DNA of 64,000 bases. Source: Acidimicrobiia bacterium. GTDB taxonomy: Bacteria > Actinomycetota > Acidimicrobiia > Spongiisociales > UBA11373. Position numbers and translations under genes: made by a program. Location: assembly GCA_040902765.1 (NCBI GenBank), contig JBBDWO010000002.1:1-64000 (forward strand), given 5' to 3'. The notes beneath the pieces were generated by a model. That model did no database searches, was not told where the DNA came from, and was given only the letters and a program-made list of their open reading frames with translations. Shown here piece after piece: positions 16,244 to 24,991 of the stretch (positions within the stretch are counted from its first letter, which is position 1; the number at the start of each line of letters is the position of its first letter).

Positions 16244-17458
16244 CTAGGGCGCCTCTAAGGTGACCTCGTCGACTTCATCGGCGTCCTCGCCGTCGTCGGT
16301 GAGGCCGCAGTCGTCGAGGGCCGCGTCGAGGGTCTCGCCACCGAACTGAACGCGCTCGTACAGCGCAACCGCGGCGAGCTCCGTGTCCGTCAGGTTCGAT
16401 CCGAACCCGGGCATGACCCCGAAGCCACCGACTTGTTTGTCGTTGGCTCCGTATGTGGGATCGGGCCACCCTGTGGTCCCGAGCCGGATCCACTCAGTGT
16501 GCTGGCCACACTGGCCCTCGGGGAAGGTCTCCGGGAGTGCGCCACCGGTGAACGCAGGACCCGAGCCACCACCGCCGCCAGCACCATGGCAACCGGCGCA
16601 CCCCCACACCTCGAACAACTCGGCACCCATCGCCAGGTAGTCGACGACCACCTCTCCGTAAGCAGAGCCGTCGCACTCGACGGCGACGCCGGTGACCGGA
16701 TCGATGGCGAGCTGACCTGCATCGCCACAGTTGGGACCGTTGGGAAGGAAGGCGGCGTAGATGATCGCCACGGCCGGGCCGACCACGAACAGGGTCGACA
16801 GCCAACGGGGCACACCGGAACCCGCCCCGACCAGCTCCGGCTCGCCCTCCTCGACTGCACGAGAGTCCGGTTCCGCTGCCTCGCCGATGACCTCCACCGC
16901 GGCGGGAGCCTCTTCCTCCGGCTCTGCCTCCTCTTGGTCGTCGCCCTCGGCTGTAGCCGCCGCTGGCGCTTCCTCGGCGGCAACCTCGGCAGCCCCCTCG
17001 TCCGCCGCCGCCGCCGGTGCCTCCGCAGGCTCTTCGGCGGGAGCGGGCTTCTCCTCGGCGGCAGCCCGGACCTCGGCGACGTCCACGCCTGCCCAGTCGG
17101 CGAGGACCTCCTCGTAGGAGCGCCCCTCGACGTCGGCGCGCGCCGCCGCCGACCGCCGGACCATGCTCGCCGGCATCTTCATCGCCTCGGCCGCCATCTC
17201 CACGAACTTGTCGATGCCCGTCGCCGCCGGCTTCGGGGCAGGTTCCGGCTTGGCGGCGGGCGCAGCCTCCGCCGCCGCCTCGTCGGGGGCACCACCCTCG
17301 CTCGGCGACTCCGGTGCGTCGACGCCCGCCCACTCGGAGAGAACCGTTTCGAGGCTGAGCCCCTCGGCCTTGGCGCGAGCCTCCGCAGATCGGCGGACCA
17401 TGGCCGCCGGCATACCCATCTTCTCCGCCGCCGCTGCGATCAGGTCGTCCAAGCTCAT
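16244..17458 (-). CDS. Membrane-anchored cytochrome c with two N-terminal VRRSA modules
   Basis: 404-residue protein of unusual design. Residues 15-47 and 94-126 are two copies of a helical module (consensus MPxxMVRRSAxARAxxEG then VLxxWAGVD; 23 of 33 positions identical). An Ala/Glu/Pro-rich linker (~130-215) follows. One membrane helix spans ~218-238. A c-type cytochrome domain carries CAGCH at 287-291 and a likely axial Met in VMPGF (Met349). Topology predicts modules and linker in the cytoplasm and haem outside. The start ATG (17456-17458) overlaps the stop of the upstream CcoN-CcoO-like gene, so the two are co-translated. Related modules also begin the subunit IV-like gene at 21452. Function inferred: electron carrier of the adjacent complex. 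Confidence 0.85.
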   Translation of the reverse strand: MSLDDLIAAAAEKMGMPAAMVRRSAEARAKAEGLSLETVLSEWAGVDAPESPSEGGAPDEAAAEAAPAAKPEPAPKPAATGIDKFVEMAAEAMKMPASMVRRSAAARADVEGRSYEEVLADWAGVDVAEVRAAAEEKPAPAEEPAEAPAAAADEGAAEVAAEEAPAAATAEGDDQEEAEPEEEAPAAVEVIGEAAEPDSRAVEEGEPELVGAGSGVPRWLSTLFVVGPAVAIIYAAFLPNGPNCGDAGQLAIDPVTGVAVECDGSAYGEVVVDYLAMGAELFEVWGCAGCHGAGGGGGSGPAFTGGALPETFPEGQCGQHTEWIRLGTTGWPDPTYGANDKQVGGFGVMPGFGSNLTDTELAAVALYERVQFGGETLDAALDDCGLTDDGEDADEVDEVTLEAP

Positions 17459-19386
17459 TCCAGCCCCGAAACGTAGACGGACAGTGCGGTCAGCTCGTCG
17501 TCGGTGAGATGGCGGTATGACGGCATCGACGACCACGGCCGCGCCGCGCGGGGGTCGATCAGGTGATCACGAATCCACAGCGGCGAATCGGTGGGGGAAC
17601 GCGACCCGGCGTGGGCGAGATCCGGTCCGATTCGACTGAACCCGCTGATGCCGGCAGGGTCGAACGCGTAGTCACCGAGATCGGACACGGCGCCCATCCG
17701 AGCATCGGTGACGATGGGGCGCACCTCCTGCGTGTGGCAATACACACACCCTTCCGTGACATAGAGCGAGCGCCCCTGGTCGGCGAGCGAGCCCTCGGCG
17801 TGCGCCCGTGACCGCTCGGCGAGGATCGACGGCCCGGTGTCGGCGTCGACGGCCGGCAGGTAATACGCCCCGAGTGCCCCGACGGCGAACAGGAGCACCA
17901 CCGTCCGCCCGACCGTCCGCAACCGGGCGGTGGTCAGGACTGCAGAGGACCGTTCCGCTTCCTCTTCCGAGCGAGCGAACGACCGCAGCAGCACCCAGAG
18001 AGCAAACAGGGAGGCCGCGGCCAGCACGACGGCGAGCGACCCGGTGGTCACCCGGTCGAGTCCGCGAACGCCCACGACCGAGGGGGCGAAGTCGTCACCT
18101 ACAGGAACCCGGCCGTCCTGCACGATCGCCAGCCATGCCAGCCCCTGCTGCAGTCCGGCGATCATCTGACTGCCGGCTGCGACCACGGCACCCCCGAAGG
18201 CGGCCAGGCCGACAGCCTGCAGGACGCGGCCCCCGCCAGCCCCCGACCGGTGTTCGTCGACCGCATGAGCCACCGCAGCCATGGCGCAGAGGGTGAACGC
18301 ACCGATGACGGTGACGATGAACACCCCGGTCTCGAACCTGGTGAACCGCAGGATGGCGGAACCGGATCGAAGGCTCAGGGTCAGCATGAGAACCGGAACC
18401 AGACCGAAGAGCAGCGATCCGAGGGCGAACAGGGTCAATGGCGCGTCGGCGGCGACCGCGGCCCACCGACCGCGAAGGGCCATGGCGAAGTCGGCGAGGA
18501 TGGCGACCACCCCGACGGCCAGTCCCACGCCGAAGACGATCGGAAGCGTCTCGAACCAGTCTCCGGTCGGGCCGTACTGGAAGGCGAGGCCGGTCGTCCA
18601 CACCCAGGTGAAGGCCAACGAGTAAAAGCCGATACGGCCGAGGTCGCCGTTGAACGCGGCGTCGGGCACGCGCCGAGAAACGAGGTAGTAGCCGACGCCG
18701 ACAGTGGCCGCGGCGATCCAGAGCCCGATGATCGCGGTGGACGAGAACGCCGCCTGCACCTCGCCGGGGATACCGGTGAGGTCCGGAGCGGCGCCAACGG
18801 CGTAGGAGGCCACCAACCACCACGGCGCCGCAATCAGATACCAGCACGACAGCGGCACCGCAGAGCGGTCGGCTCGCCGGGCGGTGAGGGTGACCAACCC
18901 GGCCAGGGTCAGGTAGGAGAGGAGCAGCGGGCCGTCGGCGAAGAGCGGCATGGCGGCGAGACCCGCACCTTCGCTCTGTCCGAACCCGATGGCGGCGACA
19001 CCGTATGCGGTGGCCGCGGCCATGAGGAGCAGGTTGCCGAGGGCGAACGCCGGGAGCGCCAGCGGCACGCCCAGGGTCCGGGGCACCGCGTGGAGGGTGA
19101 CGCCGGCGAGGCCGATGGTCAGCCACCCGAAGACCAGCGAGCACAGGGCCATCGGCCAGATCCGACCGAACGAGAGCAGTGCGGTGTCGGCAAGCAGGCC
19201 GGGCCAGACCAACTTCGCCGTGGCAAGCCCCAGGAGGGCCAGGCCGACGATCAAGAACAGCGACGAGATCAGGAAGTGGCCGCGGATCGCCAGCGACCCG
19301 AACGCCGGATTGGTGATCAGCCCGCGGAGTCCGCCCGGCGCATCGGTCGGCTCAGCGGTGTCCATCGTCTCGGTAGCCGAGGTCAC
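17455..19386 (-). CDS. CcoN-like membrane protein lacking metal ligands, fused to a CcoO-type cytochrome c domain
   Basis: 643 residues, about 12-13 membrane helices then a haem-c domain. CcoN homology by eye: LLSFGRIWPM (CcoN FGRLRPLHTN region), GYYLVSRR, FTWVWTT...GDWFETL, TRFETG and MIAGLQQGLAWLAIVQDG. At every place where CcoN has a haem b, haem b3 or CuB histidine another residue stands: A80, S216, L267/A268, V355 and I357. The membrane part therefore appears unable to bind the oxidase cofactors. The C-terminal domain is CcoO-like: GRSLYVTEGCVYCHTQEVRP with CxxCH at 547-551, RIGPDLAHAG, and axial Met621 in SMPSY. The GTG start at 19384-19386 has GGAGG nine bases upstream. It is co-translated with the cytochrome c gene and divergent from the b6-type operon. 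Confidence 0.85.
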   Translation of the reverse strand: MTSATETMDTAEPTDAPGGLRGLITNPAFGSLAIRGHFLISSLFLIVGLALLGLATAKLVWPGLLADTALLSFGRIWPMALCSLVFGWLTIGLAGVTLHAVPRTLGVPLALPAFALGNLLLMAAATAYGVAAIGFGQSEGAGLAAMPLFADGPLLLSYLTLAGLVTLTARRADRSAVPLSCWYLIAAPWWLVASYAVGAAPDLTGIPGEVQAAFSSTAIIGLWIAAATVGVGYYLVSRRVPDAAFNGDLGRIGFYSLAFTWVWTTGLAFQYGPTGDWFETLPIVFGVGLAVGVVAILADFAMALRGRWAAVAADAPLTLFALGSLLFGLVPVLMLTLSLRSGSAILRFTRFETGVFIVTVIGAFTLCAMAAVAHAVDEHRSGAGGGRVLQAVGLAAFGGAVVAAGSQMIAGLQQGLAWLAIVQDGRVPVGDDFAPSVVGVRGLDRVTTGSLAVVLAAASLFALWVLLRSFARSEEEAERSSAVLTTARLRTVGRTVVLLFAVGALGAYYLPAVDADTGPSILAERSRAHAEGSLADQGRSLYVTEGCVYCHTQEVRPIVTDARMGAVSDLGDYAFDPAGISGFSRIGPDLAHAGSRSPTDSPLWIRDHLIDPRAARPWSSMPSYRHLTDDELTALSVYVSGLE

Positions 19387-19536: not shown

Positions 19537-20151
19537 GTGTCGGATCGACTCAGGAAGCGTCTCGGGATCATCGGCGTCGTCGTCGGTTCGGTCCTGCTCA
19601 TCGGCGGCACCCTGCTGGCCCACTTCACGGCGCTCCCCCCGACCGACGCCATCGGTCAGCGGATCTACCCGAGCATCCCGAGGTGCCTGTGGTTCGAGGA
19701 GGCCGGGTCGTGCTGGATCCTGCCAACCCTCTCGAAGGCGACGGCATTCCTCGGCAGCCAGGTGCTGATTGCGGGCATCGTCGTCGGTTGGATCTTCGAT
19801 CGGAAGTTGACCTGGGCGCTCGCCACCCTCGGCGCCTTCCTGTTCACCCTCGAGGTCATCATCCTGTTCGGCATCGTCCCCAACGAGATGCTGGCGCTGT
19901 TCCAGGGCACCCTCGAGTGGTCGAGCCGCAGGATCTTCCTTACCATCCCGTCGTGGCTCGTGCTCAACAACACCGTCCAGATCAGCTACGACACGCTCAA
20001 AGACCTCGTAGTGGCCGGCTACGCCACCACCGTGCTGGTCCTGTTCATGGTGGTGCCATATCAGGTGCAGGAGTGGAGCAAACGGCGCGGTGAGCCCAAG
20101 CCGCCGTCCACGTCGCTCTACGGTCGCCCCGTCGTCAAGGGAAGCCGCTGA
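19537..20151 (+). CDS. Four-helix membrane protein preceding the ferredoxin
   Basis: 204 residues starting at a GTG with AGGAG about eight bases upstream. Roughly four membrane helices are visible (residues ~8-28, ~72-86, ~92-112, ~158-176), with a long extracytoplasmic loop containing CLWFEEAGSCW, whose two cysteines might pair. The C-terminus is polar and cytoplasmic. I do not recognise the family. It is first in the operon leading to ferredoxin, cytochrome b6, subunit IV, Rieske and cytochrome c. Its stop shares one base with the ferredoxin start (TGATG). A role as membrane anchor or quinone-interacting partner of the ferredoxin is inference. Confidence 0.8.
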   Translation: MSDRLRKRLGIIGVVVGSVLLIGGTLLAHFTALPPTDAIGQRIYPSIPRCLWFEEAGSCWILPTLSKATAFLGSQVLIAGIVVGWIFDRKLTWALATLGAFLFTLEVIILFGIVPNEMLALFQGTLEWSSRRIFLTIPSWLVLNNTVQISYDTLKDLVVAGYATTVLVLFMVVPYQVQEWSKRRGEPKPPSTSLYGRPVVKGSR

Positions 20152-20597
20152 TGGCGAACGAAGCCTGGTTCGAGACCCCTCCCTTTCGGGACGACTACCA
20201 GCTGACCCTCGTGGACGGGTCCTATCTGACCGCAGCCGTCAAGCCCAAGCAGTTCCTCCACATCGATCAGGCCGAGTGCATCCTGTGCGAGGGCTGCGTC
20301 GACATCTGCCCCTGGAAGTGCATCCACTATCTCTCCCTCGACACGATCGCCGAGGCGACCAACGTCGACGACCCGCGCCAGGACGCCACCAACTACGGGG
20401 TGTTCATCGTCGACGAGGACGAGTGCACCCGATGTGCCCTGTGCGTCGACCGGTGCCCGACCAACGTGATCAGCCTCGGCAAGTATGAGGGGTCGCTGGC
20501 CGCCCAGGCGGAGGAGCTCGCGGTGAGCGCGCCGTGGGCGGTGGACACGGGGCAGCGAGATCACAAACACGGCTATGCCTACGGCATGCGGTTCTGA
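20151..20597 (+). CDS. 2x[4Fe-4S] ferredoxin-like protein
   Basis: 148-residue iron-sulfur protein with two complete cluster motifs, C43/C46/C49/C53 (CILCEGCVDICP) and C92/C95/C98/C102 (CTRCALCVDRCP), separated by ~40 residues. Unlike short bacterial ferredoxins it has ~40 residues before and ~45 after the clusters. There is no signal peptide, so it is cytoplasmic. It overlaps the membrane-protein gene upstream and is 62 bases before cytochrome b6. Its presence in a quinol:cytochrome c reductase operon is unusual for actinobacteria. It may feed or accept electrons at the cytoplasmic face; that is inference. Confidence 0.9.
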   Translation: MANEAWFETPPFRDDYQLTLVDGSYLTAAVKPKQFLHIDQAECILCEGCVDICPWKCIHYLSLDTIAEATNVDDPRQDATNYGVFIVDEDECTRCALCVDRCPTNVISLGKYEGSLAAQAEELAVSAPWAVDTGQRDHKHGYAYGMRF

Positions 20598-20659: not shown

Positions 20660-21442
20660 TTGACCAGCGGAAACGGCGACGGGAAGAAGGGCATCGGCAC
20701 TCGGCTCGCCGAGATGCCCGGCCGCGTGCGCGACAGCGAGGTCTGGGAGTCGATCTTCCGGCCCGGTTCGCCGTTCCGCAAAGGCTACGGCGACAGCCCC
20801 CGCAACCGGTCCTACGTGATCATGAACAACGTGCTCTATCACCTCCACCCGGTGAAGGTGAAGCGGCACGCCGTCCGCCTTTCCTACACCCTGTGCCTGG
20901 GAGGGCTCTCTTTCTTCCTGTTCATCCTGTTGACCATCACGGGCATCTTCCTCATGTTCTATTACACGCCCGCCTCGCCCGACGCGTACGAGGACATCGC
21001 CTCGCTGTCCACGAGCGTCGCCTTCGGGCAGCTGGTGCGCAACATGCACCGATGGGGCGCCCACCTGATGGTGATCACGGTGTTCCTGCACATGACCCGG
21101 GTCTTCTATCACGGCGCCTACAAGCCGCCGCGCGAGTTCAACTGGGTGGTCGGCGTCGTCCTGCTCTTTCTCACCCTGTTCCTCTCCTTCACCGGCTACC
21201 TGCTCCCTTGGGACCAGCTGGCCCTGTGGGCGGTGACGGTGGGATCCAACATGGGTGGCTACACCCCCGTGTTCGGTGACCAGGTGACGTTCGTACTGCT
21301 CGGGGGGCTCCAGGTGGGGGCGGCGACGCTGCTGCGCTTCTACGTGCTCCACGTCCTCGCCTTTCCGTTCCTCATCGTGATCTTCATGGCCGTCCACTTC
21401 TGGCGCGTGCGCAAAGACGGCGGCATCTCCGGACCGCTCTAA
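20660..21442 (+). CDS. Cytochrome b6-type subunit of a quinol:cytochrome c reductase
   Basis: 260-residue four-helix cytochrome b N-terminal half. Haem b ligands are H130/H144 (13 residues between, RNMHRWGAH and FLHMTR) and H231/H246 (14 between). The 14-residue spacing in helix D is the b6 rather than bc1 pattern. C79 in [10 protein letters not shown] sits where b6 proteins bind the extra haem c (YCLGG). The motif TGYLLPWDQ is typical. The start is a TTG at 20660 with GGAGG six bases upstream. It belongs with the adjacent subunit IV-like and Rieske genes; the quinol is probably menaquinol. Confidence 0.93.
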
Positions 21443-21451
21443 GGATCGACC

Positions 21452-22141
21452 ATGGCTGACATCCCCGAACATCTCCTCAGACGAGCCGCACAGGCGAGAG
21501 CGAAGGCTCGCGGCGTGTCCGTCGACGAGGTGCTCGTCGAGTTCGGCGCCGCGCCCTCAGAGGGCAACGGCGAGTCGGCGGCGCCGGCGGCCACCGTGGC
21601 CACCGCGGTCTCGTCGGCCCCCTCCGCTCTAGCCATCCCAGAGGGCGTCCGCACCCAGCGCCTCCTGACCGTGGTCAAGGCTCGAGCCATCCAGCAGGTG
21701 AAGAAGGAGCCCACCGACAAGGTGCATGTGTGGCCCCACCTGCTCGGCATGGAGTTCGTGGCGCTGCTGGTGGTCACCGCCCTGCTCACCGTCTTCTCCG
21801 TGTTCCAGGACGCCCCGCTCCTCGAGTTCGCCAATCCGAACGACCAGCCGAATCCGTCAAAGGCCCCGTGGTACTTCCTCGGCCTCCAGGAGCTGCTGTC
21901 CTACTTCGACGCCCAGGTGGCAGGCGTCCTCATCCCGGGCCTCGGACTGGCCGGGCTCGCCTCCATCCCCTATGTGGACCGCAACCGCTCAACACTGCCT
22001 TCGGATCGCAAGTTCGCCATCATGGTGTTCACCTTCTTCGTGATGGCCTCGGCGATCCTCACCATGATCGGATCCTTCTACCGGGGTCCCGGACTCAACT
22101 TCTCGTATCCGTGGAGAGACGGGATCTTCTTCGACCTATGA
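21452..22141 (+). CDS. Subunit IV-type cytochrome b C-terminal half with N-terminal VRRSA-like module
   Basis: 229 residues. Residues 3-33 (IPEHLLRRAAQARAKARGVS then VDEVLVEFGA) match the module duplicated in the cytochrome c at 16244. An Ala-rich linker follows. Three membrane helices come next with PNPSKAPWYFLGLQELLSYF, the subunit IV quinol-site motif with APWY in place of PEWY as in menaquinol-type enzymes. The ATG at 21452 follows AAGGA. Its stop overlaps the Rieske start (ATGA). Together with the b6 gene it makes a complete split cytochrome b. Confidence 0.93.
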   Translation: MADIPEHLLRRAAQARAKARGVSVDEVLVEFGAAPSEGNGESAAPAATVATAVSSAPSALAIPEGVRTQRLLTVVKARAIQQVKKEPTDKVHVWPHLLGMEFVALLVVTALLTVFSVFQDAPLLEFANPNDQPNPSKAPWYFLGLQELLSYFDAQVAGVLIPGLGLAGLASIPYVDRNRSTLPSDRKFAIMVFTFFVMASAILTMIGSFYRGPGLNFSYPWRDGIFFDL

Positions 22142-22968
22142 GCGCGCCACAGATCCTCTCACTGGCATTCGCCATCATCGCGATCCTCGCCGTGGTCGCC
22201 ATCGGCAGCGTGGCCTACCGACGCGGCACCGGGGAAACGGACGAGGGAACCACCGGTCGACTCGACCGCAAGGCCCGCCGTCGTGGCCGCGATGTGGAGA
22301 AGCGTCGGCGCTCCCCTGAGCGGGAGCCCATCGCAGCGGAGGCCACGGCCACCGACGAGGAGCCTCCGGTCGACCCCCGGCAACTCCGACCCGAAATCGG
22401 CCGCGAGGAGTACGACATCACCCGGCGGCAGTTCTTCAACCGCGGGGTCGGTGCCATCTTCGGTGTGTTCCTCGCCCAGTTCGGCATCGCCTCACTCGCC
22501 TTCATGTGGCCGAAGCTCCGGGGCGGCGGCTTCGGAGGCCGCGTGGTCATCGGCACCATCGATGACCTCACCAGAAGCGTCTTCCTCCCCGACGGCCGGG
22601 TGCAGCCACTCTTCGCCTCGGCCGCCCAGGCCTACATCGTGCCCTTCCAGGGGAGTACCGACGGGACCAGCTTCGAGGGACTCCCGGTCGTCGCCGGCGG
22701 CCTGATGGCGCTGTGGCAACGGTGCGTGCACCTCGGCTGCCGGGTGCCGACCTGCCAGAGCAGCCAGGGCTTCGAATGCCCGTGCCACTCCTCCAAGTAC
22801 AACTACCACGGCGAATACGAGGACGGACCGGCACCCCGGAACCTCGACCGCTTCGTGGTGTCGCTCGACGACGCCGGCAACTTCATCGTGGACACCGGAC
22901 AGGTGATCCAGACCTCCCGTTCCCGGGTCAAGAGCACCGAGTACCCGCAAGGACCGTCGTGTCTGTGA
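22138..22968 (+). CDS. Rieske [2Fe-2S] protein
   Basis: 276 residues. Two hydrophobic helices (~5-26 and ~103-123) flank a strongly basic/acidic cytoplasmic stretch. The Rieske fold then carries ligands C196/H198 (CVHLGC) and C214/H217 (CPCHSS), with C201 and C216 placed for the stabilising disulfide. The extra first helix recalls the multi-helix Rieske proteins of actinobacteria rather than the one-helix bc1 type. The ATG overlaps the subunit IV stop. Confidence 0.95.
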   Translation: MSAPQILSLAFAIIAILAVVAIGSVAYRRGTGETDEGTTGRLDRKARRRGRDVEKRRRSPEREPIAAEATATDEEPPVDPRQLRPEIGREEYDITRRQFFNRGVGAIFGVFLAQFGIASLAFMWPKLRGGGFGGRVVIGTIDDLTRSVFLPDGRVQPLFASAAQAYIVPFQGSTDGTSFEGLPVVAGGLMALWQRCVHLGCRVPTCQSSQGFECPCHSSKYNYHGEYEDGPAPRNLDRFVVSLDDAGNFIVDTGQVIQTSRSRVKSTEYPQGPSCL

Positions 22969-22997: not shown

Positions 22998-24500
22998 ATG
23001 GACCTAGGTGCGGCGGTACTCGCCCTCGCCATCCTCGCCTTCATCGGCTGGCTCACCTACGCCGTGACCCGCGGGCCGGCACGCCCCACCCGCGAGGCGC
23101 CGCCACCCAATCTCGAGCCGTACATGACGGACGACGAGCTGGAGTCGAAGCGGCTCAACCGAGTGCTCGGCGCGGCCCTGGTCGCTACCGCCGTCCTCGC
23201 CATCGTCATGCCGCTCTATTACCTGAACGAGACCGACCGTCAGGCGGCGGCGGAGTACCGGTTCGGCCAGATCGCCATCGAGCGCGGCCACCACTGGTTC
23301 GAGGAGTTCCAGTGCATCGACTGCCACGGTCCCAGCGGGGTCGGCGGCGCAGCGTCGTTCATCGAGTCTCGCAGCGGCATGCCCACGAGCTGGGCGGCTC
23401 CGGCACTCGACGACATCTTCCTGCGGTACTCCGTCGACGAGATCAGGTACTGGATCACCTTCGGCCGCCCGGGCACGCCGATGCCGGCGTGGGGCGTGGA
23501 AGGCGGCGGACCGCTCACCTACCAGCAGGTGGACGAGCTGATTGCGCTCATCGGGACGATTCAGATCGGCGCCGGGGCCGCCTTCGACGCCGTCGACAGC
23601 CGGGTACGGTTCGAACTCACCCGCCTCGACGGCGCCGACGACACGGTGGACGCAGCCATCGCCGCCAAGCAGGCCGAGATCGACTCGATCCTGGCCGCGC
23701 CAGACCTGTACGCGCGGGTCCTGACCATGCCTGCGGAACTGGTTGCCATTCTCAGCGCCGACGGCACCTGCACCGCAGCCTCGGCAGAACTCGTGTCGCT
23801 CCCCTGCGGCGCCTCCGGGACCGACACCGACCGGGACGGCCTCGCCGACGATGCGGAGACCGAGCTGACCGGCTTCCTCGAACGACTGCTCGCCGTGATT
23901 CCCCCGTCCCCCTCGGCCAACGACCTCGCCCGCCTCGTGTTCGATCCAGCCGACGCCTTCAGCAACACCGACAGCGAGGGTCGACCGCTGCGCGATCTCG
24001 CCGCTGCCGATGAGGTGATCCTCGACGTGGACCAGGTGGTTCGGGACCTCCGACTGGCCACCCAAAACGGTGACCGGCTCCTCGCCGCCGCCGAGGCGAA
24101 CCTCGCCTTCCTCATCGAGGCGCGTGAGGCCCGTCGCTACGCCGTCGACTTTGACACCCTCGCCACCGATGCCTTCGGCGGGAATCTCGACGACGCCCGC
24201 CGCGCCGTCGGCCTGTACAACGCCTACTGCGCCCGTTGCCACACCGCCGGGTTCTCCGCCGGGATCGCCTTCGCCCAGGAGCCTGGTTCCGGGGCGATGG
24301 GGCCCTCCCTCCGTGGCGGTCGGGCGCTGGTCCAGTTTCCGAACCTCGACGACCACATCGCCTTTCTCATCTCCGGCTCGGACGAACTGGTGCCCTACGG
24401 GGTCAACGGGCTGGGTAGTGGTCGGATGCCCAGCTTCGGAACATTCCTCAGCGAGCAGGACCTGACCCTCATCGCCAGGTACGAGAGGAGCCTGCCATGA
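22998..24500 (+). CDS. Dihaem membrane cytochrome c with a long inserted domain
   Basis: 500 residues. Two N-terminal helices (~4-23 and ~56-74), then CIDCH at 106-110 and CARCH at 411-415, each with a downstream Met (TPMPAW, GRMPSF) as probable axial ligand. The two haem domains are separated by ~250 residues of non-haem sequence. This insert includes an acidic loop DTDRDGLADDAETE near residue 280 that resembles calcium-binding thrombospondin-type-3 repeats, and a cysteine pair. It is the haem c subunit of the b6-type complex by position. The insert is not recognised. Confidence 0.9.
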   Translation: MDLGAAVLALAILAFIGWLTYAVTRGPARPTREAPPPNLEPYMTDDELESKRLNRVLGAALVATAVLAIVMPLYYLNETDRQAAAEYRFGQIAIERGHHWFEEFQCIDCHGPSGVGGAASFIESRSGMPTSWAAPALDDIFLRYSVDEIRYWITFGRPGTPMPAWGVEGGGPLTYQQVDELIALIGTIQIGAGAAFDAVDSRVRFELTRLDGADDTVDAAIAAKQAEIDSILAAPDLYARVLTMPAELVAILSADGTCTAASAELVSLPCGASGTDTDRDGLADDAETELTGFLERLLAVIPPSPSANDLARLVFDPADAFSNTDSEGRPLRDLAAADEVILDVDQVVRDLRLATQNGDRLLAAAEANLAFLIEAREARRYAVDFDTLATDAFGGNLDDARRAVGLYNAYCARCHTAGFSAGIAFAQEPGSGAMGPSLRGGRALVQFPNLDDHIAFLISGSDELVPYGVNGLGSGRMPSFGTFLSEQDLTLIARYERSLP

Positions 24501-24991
24501 TCGCACGGCTCCATCGCGACGAACGCGGGCTCAGCCGTCTCGAGTGGATCGGGATCATCCTCGCCCTGTTCGTTCTGTTGTCGTTCGTTCCCCAGTTCCG
24601 GGCGCTGCTCGCCGATGTCTACGACTGGATGGTGGGGCGCCACAACGTCGACGCCGATGGCAACCCGGCGTCGGGCGTCCTCGTCCGTGGCCTCATCGTC
24701 GCCATCAGTGCGCTGGCGATCTTCGTGGGCACCGTCTGGCTCATCAACCACACCAACCTGGGTAACCGCCTGGCGTTCCTCATCACCGGAGCCGGCTTCT
24801 TCGGGTTCCTGGCCATCGTCGGTCTCCTCTACACGCTGTATGCCCCACGGGGTGTGCGACCGAGGTCGGTCGAGGGCCTCAACGCCTTCGAGATCCGAAT
24901 CCTCCCCGGGTCGCTGATGGTGGGGTCGGCGATCCTGTTCGTGATGTTCCTCGCCGCCCTCAGCCGCCTGGAAGCCGCGCAAGACGAGTAG
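24497..24991 (+). CDS. Small membrane protein ending the b6-type operon
   Basis: 164 residues with about four helices (~17-35, ~62-82, ~91-112, ~134-155). The ATG overlaps the dihaem cytochrome stop (ATGA). The start DERGLSRLEWIGIILALF is superficially like a class III prepilin leader but the rest is a multi-helix protein, so I do not call it a pilin. No family is recognised. Position suggests an accessory subunit of the reductase. Confidence 0.8.
   Translation: MIARLHRDERGLSRLEWIGIILALFVLLSFVPQFRALLADVYDWMVGRHNVDADGNPASGVLVRGLIVAISALAIFVGTVWLINHTNLGNRLAFLITGAGFFGFLAIVGLLYTLYAPRGVRPRSVEGLNAFEIRILPGSLMVGSAILFVMFLAALSRLEAAQDE

Follow-up and report, generated by a model that had tools for sequence, protein, structure and literature searches.

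A 643-residue protein from an actinobacterial genome joins in one polypeptide a CcoN and a CcoO of the cbb3 oxidase type, and its CcoN half lacks all six haem- and copper-binding histidines as well as the active-site tyrosine. The window considered here is the whole 64,000-nucleotide stretch that was analysed (positions 1 to 64,000 of contig JBBDWO010000002.1, from an Acidimicrobiia bacterium), and the features in it that concern this protein are collected in Table 1. Based on sequence comparisons and a structural model we suggest, with a probability of roughly 0.55, that the fusion serves as a non-catalytic scaffold free of haem b, with c-type haems that would form an electron relay between complex III and a caa3 oxidase. 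The first-pass annotation had placed the frame correctly and said nothing of its strand; it is encoded on the minus strand, with its coding part running from 19386 to 17458, followed by the stop codon.

Table 1. Features of the ligand-free CcoN locus (coordinates are those of the window)
Feature	Coordinates	Strand	Basis or remark
Fusion of ligand-free CcoN and CcoO, 643 aa (P0001)	17455..19386, including stop	minus	GTG start, GGAGG upstream
Ligand-free CcoN domain, residues 25-472	17971..19314	minus	Pfam COX1; hhalign, 436 columns; AlphaFold/Foldseek
CcoO part (transmembrane helix and cytochrome c domain), residues 489-643	17458..17922	minus	FixO; 3mk7_B
CVYCH haem c attachment motif, residues 547-551	17734..17748	minus	
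M621, axial haem c ligand	17524..17526	minus	
A80, at low-spin haem b His position	19147..19149	minus	three alignments
T217, at CuB His position	18736..18738	minus	three alignments
W261, at cross-linked Tyr position	18604..18606	minus	MAFFT, hhalign
L267/A268, at CuB HH pair	18583..18588	minus	three alignments
V355/I357, at HxH pair (haem b3 and b)	18316..18324	minus	three alignments
Partner gene: N-terminal repeats, one transmembrane helix, mono-haem cytochrome c (CAGCH)	16244..17458	minus	
mem195, membrane protein without Pfam family, first gene of divergent operon	19537..20151	plus	
Ferredoxin-like subunit, two 4Fe-4S motifs	20151..20597	plus	
Cytochrome b6-type subunit	20660..21442	plus	only Cytochrome_B match in source genome
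petD-like subunit IV	21452..22141	plus	
Rieske subunit	22138..22968	plus	probable start: in-frame ATG overlapping petD stop
Cytochrome c, two CXXCH motifs	22998..24500	plus	
mem245, membrane protein of same operon	24497..24991	plus	

Sequence, profile-profile and AlphaFold comparisons concur that the membrane half of the fusion is a CcoN, a kinship previously claimed from an alignment by eye. The N-terminal part matches Pfam COX1 with 53 bits (cut-off 34.8) and the C-terminal part matches FixO with 82 bits. The top NCBIfam match of the fusion is PRK14485, 'bifunctional ccoNO', at 115 bits, which is below the cut-off of 1080, and its score against NCBIfam ccoN (54.8 bits) is likewise far under the cut-off of 583. 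The nearest solved structures are CcoN (3mk7_A, E=3e-11) and CcoO (3mk7_B, E=3e-16) of P. stutzeri. An hhalign comparison of 60 family members with 15 canonical CcoN sequences, which the first-pass annotation had proposed in the form of a profile alignment with inspection of the ligand columns, upholds both the relationship and the ligand loss (probability 100%, E=9.5e-75, 436 columns). Likewise, the AlphaFold model of the fusion (pLDDT 90, pTM 0.93) has 3mk7 CcoN as its best Foldseek match, with a TM-score of 0.89-0.91 by target length.

The register of the ligand positions was taken from three alignments, a pairwise HMMER alignment, a MAFFT alignment with canonical CcoN and the hhalign comparison (60 against 15), all of which agree. 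They bear out the loss of every haem and copper ligand, and the replacements first named for the low-spin haem histidine and for the HH and HxH pairs stand; the residue given for the CuB histidine, S216, was off by one, the correct residue being T217. Neither of the outcomes that had been singled out as fatal to the first reading, namely histidines at these sites in another register or no relationship to CcoN, was found, and the concurrence of the three alignments rules out the former. The full ligand set is absent from every member of the group that was read, with mixed replacements: most f8 members read keep a single histidine at the first HH position, and arginine occupies it in most members of the source genome's own family. 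The residues that pack the fold, among them G74, W277, G411, G415 and W418, have stayed. To our knowledge, no protein described so far in the haem-copper oxidase superfamily is devoid of all metal ligands and nevertheless conserved across a clade.

It is conceivable that the emptied pockets bind another cofactor or a quinone, or that the fold serves as a proton path, and both the vacated ligand positions and the arginine at the first HH histidine could be read in this way. Yet across the clade the ligand columns show no conserved polar residue, and in the membrane part of 49 relatives no column of His, Met, Cys or Lys is conserved above 50%. Moreover, a tyrosine that is invariant in canonical CcoN (position 320 of L080) has also been lost, with F327 in its place in the fusion. 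We consider such a use very unlikely, and the quinone-binding function that had been listed among the options finds no support.

The loss of all ligands could also mark a decaying remnant of a cbb3 oxidase, but in pairs with unsaturated dS the CcoN part has a dN/dS of about 0.13-0.14, internal stops are absent from nearly all copies, and the members form one diversified clade that is retained in streamlined genomes of about 1 Mb. As judged from these substitution rates the gene is under purifying selection, as the intact frame had first suggested. A pseudogene is ruled out by the dN/dS and the open frames, and decay is scarcely credible. An assembly or binning oddity can also be dismissed, given matches to the family model, fused or split, in 118 of the 138 genomes of the source genome's taxonomic order and the presence of named records, which are mostly metagenome-assembled genomes of Acidimicrobiia or other Actinomycetota. 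The layout varies by family, with a fused gene in some and adjacent, split genes for ligand-free CcoN and CcoO in others. Beyond the order, ligand-free CcoN is found in the streamlined genomes of the same class (f12, about 1 Mb, 34-37% G+C, which to judge from these values are probably Actinomarinales), in f13 and f15, and, farther off within Actinomycetota, in families f61, f65 and f91; ligand-bearing CcoN occurs in the Actinomycetota families f71, f72 and f80 and in other phyla. In a tree computed with the ligand columns blanked, a single branch with support 100/99 sets all 36 ligand-free rows apart from the others; it is recovered in 100% of bootstrap trees, and a larger quick tree gives the same split between ligand-free and ligand-bearing CcoN. 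The tree fits a single loss of the ligands, with a root that is not fixed and with f12 on a long branch. Repeated independent loss within the family is not needed to account for it.

The CcoO part carries the mono-haem cytochrome c expected from its matches to FixO and 3mk7_B, and the CXXCH motif and axial methionine reported for it earlier are both in place (C547VYCH and M621). Among fused members whose sequence reaches this part, the CXXCH is retained in 42 of 42 and the axial methionine in 41, the remaining one being a truncated sequence. The 17 split-gene CcoO rows aligned beside P0001 all retain the CXXCH, and in most of them the axial methionine is replaced by histidine (L172-L177, L181, L047-L050, L180, L182 and L183) or glutamine (L046 and L184).

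The main rival to an electron relay is that the ligand-free CcoN is purely a structural or assembly subunit, whose sole task is to stabilise complex III or a supercomplex, its c-type haem being incidental. The disappearance of the b-haem and copper ligands from all members accords with this, as does the distant member G372, in which a CcoO homologue (L233, 4072-4509) beside a ligand-free CcoN has neither CXXCH nor axial methionine and both frames are open. Against it, every other member examined retains the CXXCH, and the matches to the adjoining partner gene contain one CXXCH at 77 of 83 loci. A purely structural role thus appears rather unlikely for the group; it may apply in G372, which is a member without any predicted metal site, so that a redox role is not universal among ligand-free CcoN proteins. 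The relatives of G372 in L231 and L232 have the CXXCH and lack the axial methionine.

The genomic context points, indirectly, to an association with complex III. The fusion's TGA and the ATG of the partner gene overlap as ATGA, and the two genes adjoin in nearly all relatives. In nearly all members with enough flanking sequence, the pair is divergent from an operon of the order mem195, ferredoxin, b6, petD, Rieske, diheme cytochrome c and mem245; the f13 and f15 loci show a looser pairing with the operon, and the distant families are only partly resolved. The ferredoxin-containing operon and ligand-free CcoN are found together in 74 of the 95 genomes compared in the order, and 14 have neither. 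The operon occurs without ligand-free CcoN in three genomes, all cut by contig ends, and the converse holds in four, three of which look like contig-end fragments; the fourth, G006, seems to have no ferredoxin gene between cytochrome b6 and mem195 at its locus L038. Two fragmented assemblies, G011 and G012, have a COX2 match and neither ligand-free CcoN nor the ferredoxin operon. Both the co-location and the co-occurrence that characterise an accessory subunit of complex III are therefore seen, and the survey of neighbouring genes, recommended at the outset, places the fusion in one clade within a conserved complex III locus. This favours the electron-relay or structural roles among those initially offered. 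In genomes sampled from the other orders of the class, this complex III operon is present, mostly beside nuo and menJ, without ligand-free CcoN, which is thus not required for that complex III in general; to judge from these gene arrangements, the module seems to have been added to it. A repeat of about 45 aa (xxMVRRSAxARAxxEGxSxExVLxxWAGV), with no match in Pfam even at E=1, is present twice in the partner cytochrome (16244-17458) and, in similar form, once in petD (21452-22141).

The source genome, which is 97% complete, encodes a single cytochrome b, that of the divergent operon, and its only other COX1-family protein belongs to an A-type (caa3) oxidase, whose CtaC has a cytochrome c domain. 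CcoS was not found above the cut-off in 25 genomes (the controls matched, one of them above the cut-off), and a CcoP-type diheme cytochrome c is not at the locus, where the adjoining partner gene has one CXXCH. These observations suggest how a scaffold of this kind could operate. The protein is derived from a CcoN of the cbb3 oxidase type, joined to its CcoO; sequence and model show that the oxygen-reducing core was lost and the membrane fold kept, and the protein is predicted not to reduce oxygen. As a non-catalytic, haem b-free subunit it would work with the divergent b6f-like complex III beside which it is almost invariably encoded, its fold holding the haem c of CcoO and the mono-haem cytochrome c of the partner at the outer face of the membrane. 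Electrons would leave complex III by its cytochrome c (two CXXCH motifs) and pass through these c-haems to the CuA or haem c of the caa3 oxidase, probably within a III-IV supercomplex. More tentatively, we propose a single conversion of a haem-copper oxidase core subunit into a dedicated metal-free adaptor joining an unusual complex III to caa3 in several families of Actinomycetota.

Alternatively, the c-haems could form a branch in which complex III delivers its electrons not to caa3 but to another acceptor, for instance nitrous oxide reductase. Several genomes, the source genome among them, contain a COX2-type CuA domain in frames of about 680 aa that are probably NosZ, and the histidine or glutamine at the axial position in the split lineages suggests an altered potential; but many genomes with ligand-free CcoN show no such frame, and we regard a branch of this type as improbable. 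A role specific to NosZ was rejected, the presence pattern being inconsistent with it. A CuA-type domain of this sort lies at 12061-12243 of contig C4 in G000, in a 679-aa frame that is probably a nitrous oxide reductase.

An electron-relaying scaffold would have partial parallels in several known systems. With the CcoN and CcoO of cbb3 oxidases (TIGR00780, TIGR00781; 3mk7) the fusion shares the fold (TM about 0.9), the order of helices, packing residues and the haem c of CcoO; it differs in the loss of the six histidines and the tyrosine, in the lack of a detected CcoS and in a partner with one CXXCH rather than two. The fusion had been thought undescribed, but proteins with CcoN followed by CcoO are already known (PRK14485, NF011053). 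The canonical fused rows (L100, L105, L117, L120 and L124) keep the ligands, whereas the present fusion has lost them. In other Actinobacteria a diheme cytochrome cc links complexes III and IV directly, and in their bcc-aa3 supercomplex the c-haems connect complex III to an A-type oxidase without a small cytochrome c (PMC8361435). The locus described here is likewise from Actinomycetota; unlike the bcc-aa3 system it has a split b6/IV cytochrome b, a ferredoxin-like subunit and the additional pair of fusion and cytochrome c, and its supercomplex is a conjecture. CcoN and CcoO are also joined with complex III in the bc1-cbb3 supercomplexes of R. capsulatus (6xkw) and P. aeruginosa (8smr), but those CcoN proteins keep their ligands and are oxidases. 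Similarly, at three Acidobacteriota loci (L065-L067) the genes for Rieske, cytochrome b, cytochrome c, CcoN and CcoO follow one another, possibly as a bc-cbb3 unit, and their CcoN retains all the ligands that are missing here. A ligand-free CcoN as a conserved subunit, of which we found no description in the open-access literature, appears to be new; the fusion itself is not. If our proposal is correct, it would clearly exemplify the reuse of an oxidase subunit as a scaffold in respiration. Because the gene passes the Pfam COX1 cut-off, surveys based on COX1 could wrongly ascribe a high-affinity cbb3 oxidase to these bacteria.

A few further rows deserve mention. A CcoNO fusion from Mariniblastus (Planctomycetota; L102) has lost part of its ligands (L H S H Q S Q) and groups with canonical CcoN, which indicates an independent degeneration. 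A CcoN from Chloroflexi (L123) has the six histidines and, as judged by eye, apparently a serine in place of the active-site tyrosine. Finally, a record titled Acidobacteria (L063) contains a cluster of the Acidimicrobiia type, groups with the Actinomycetota rows and is probably misbinned.
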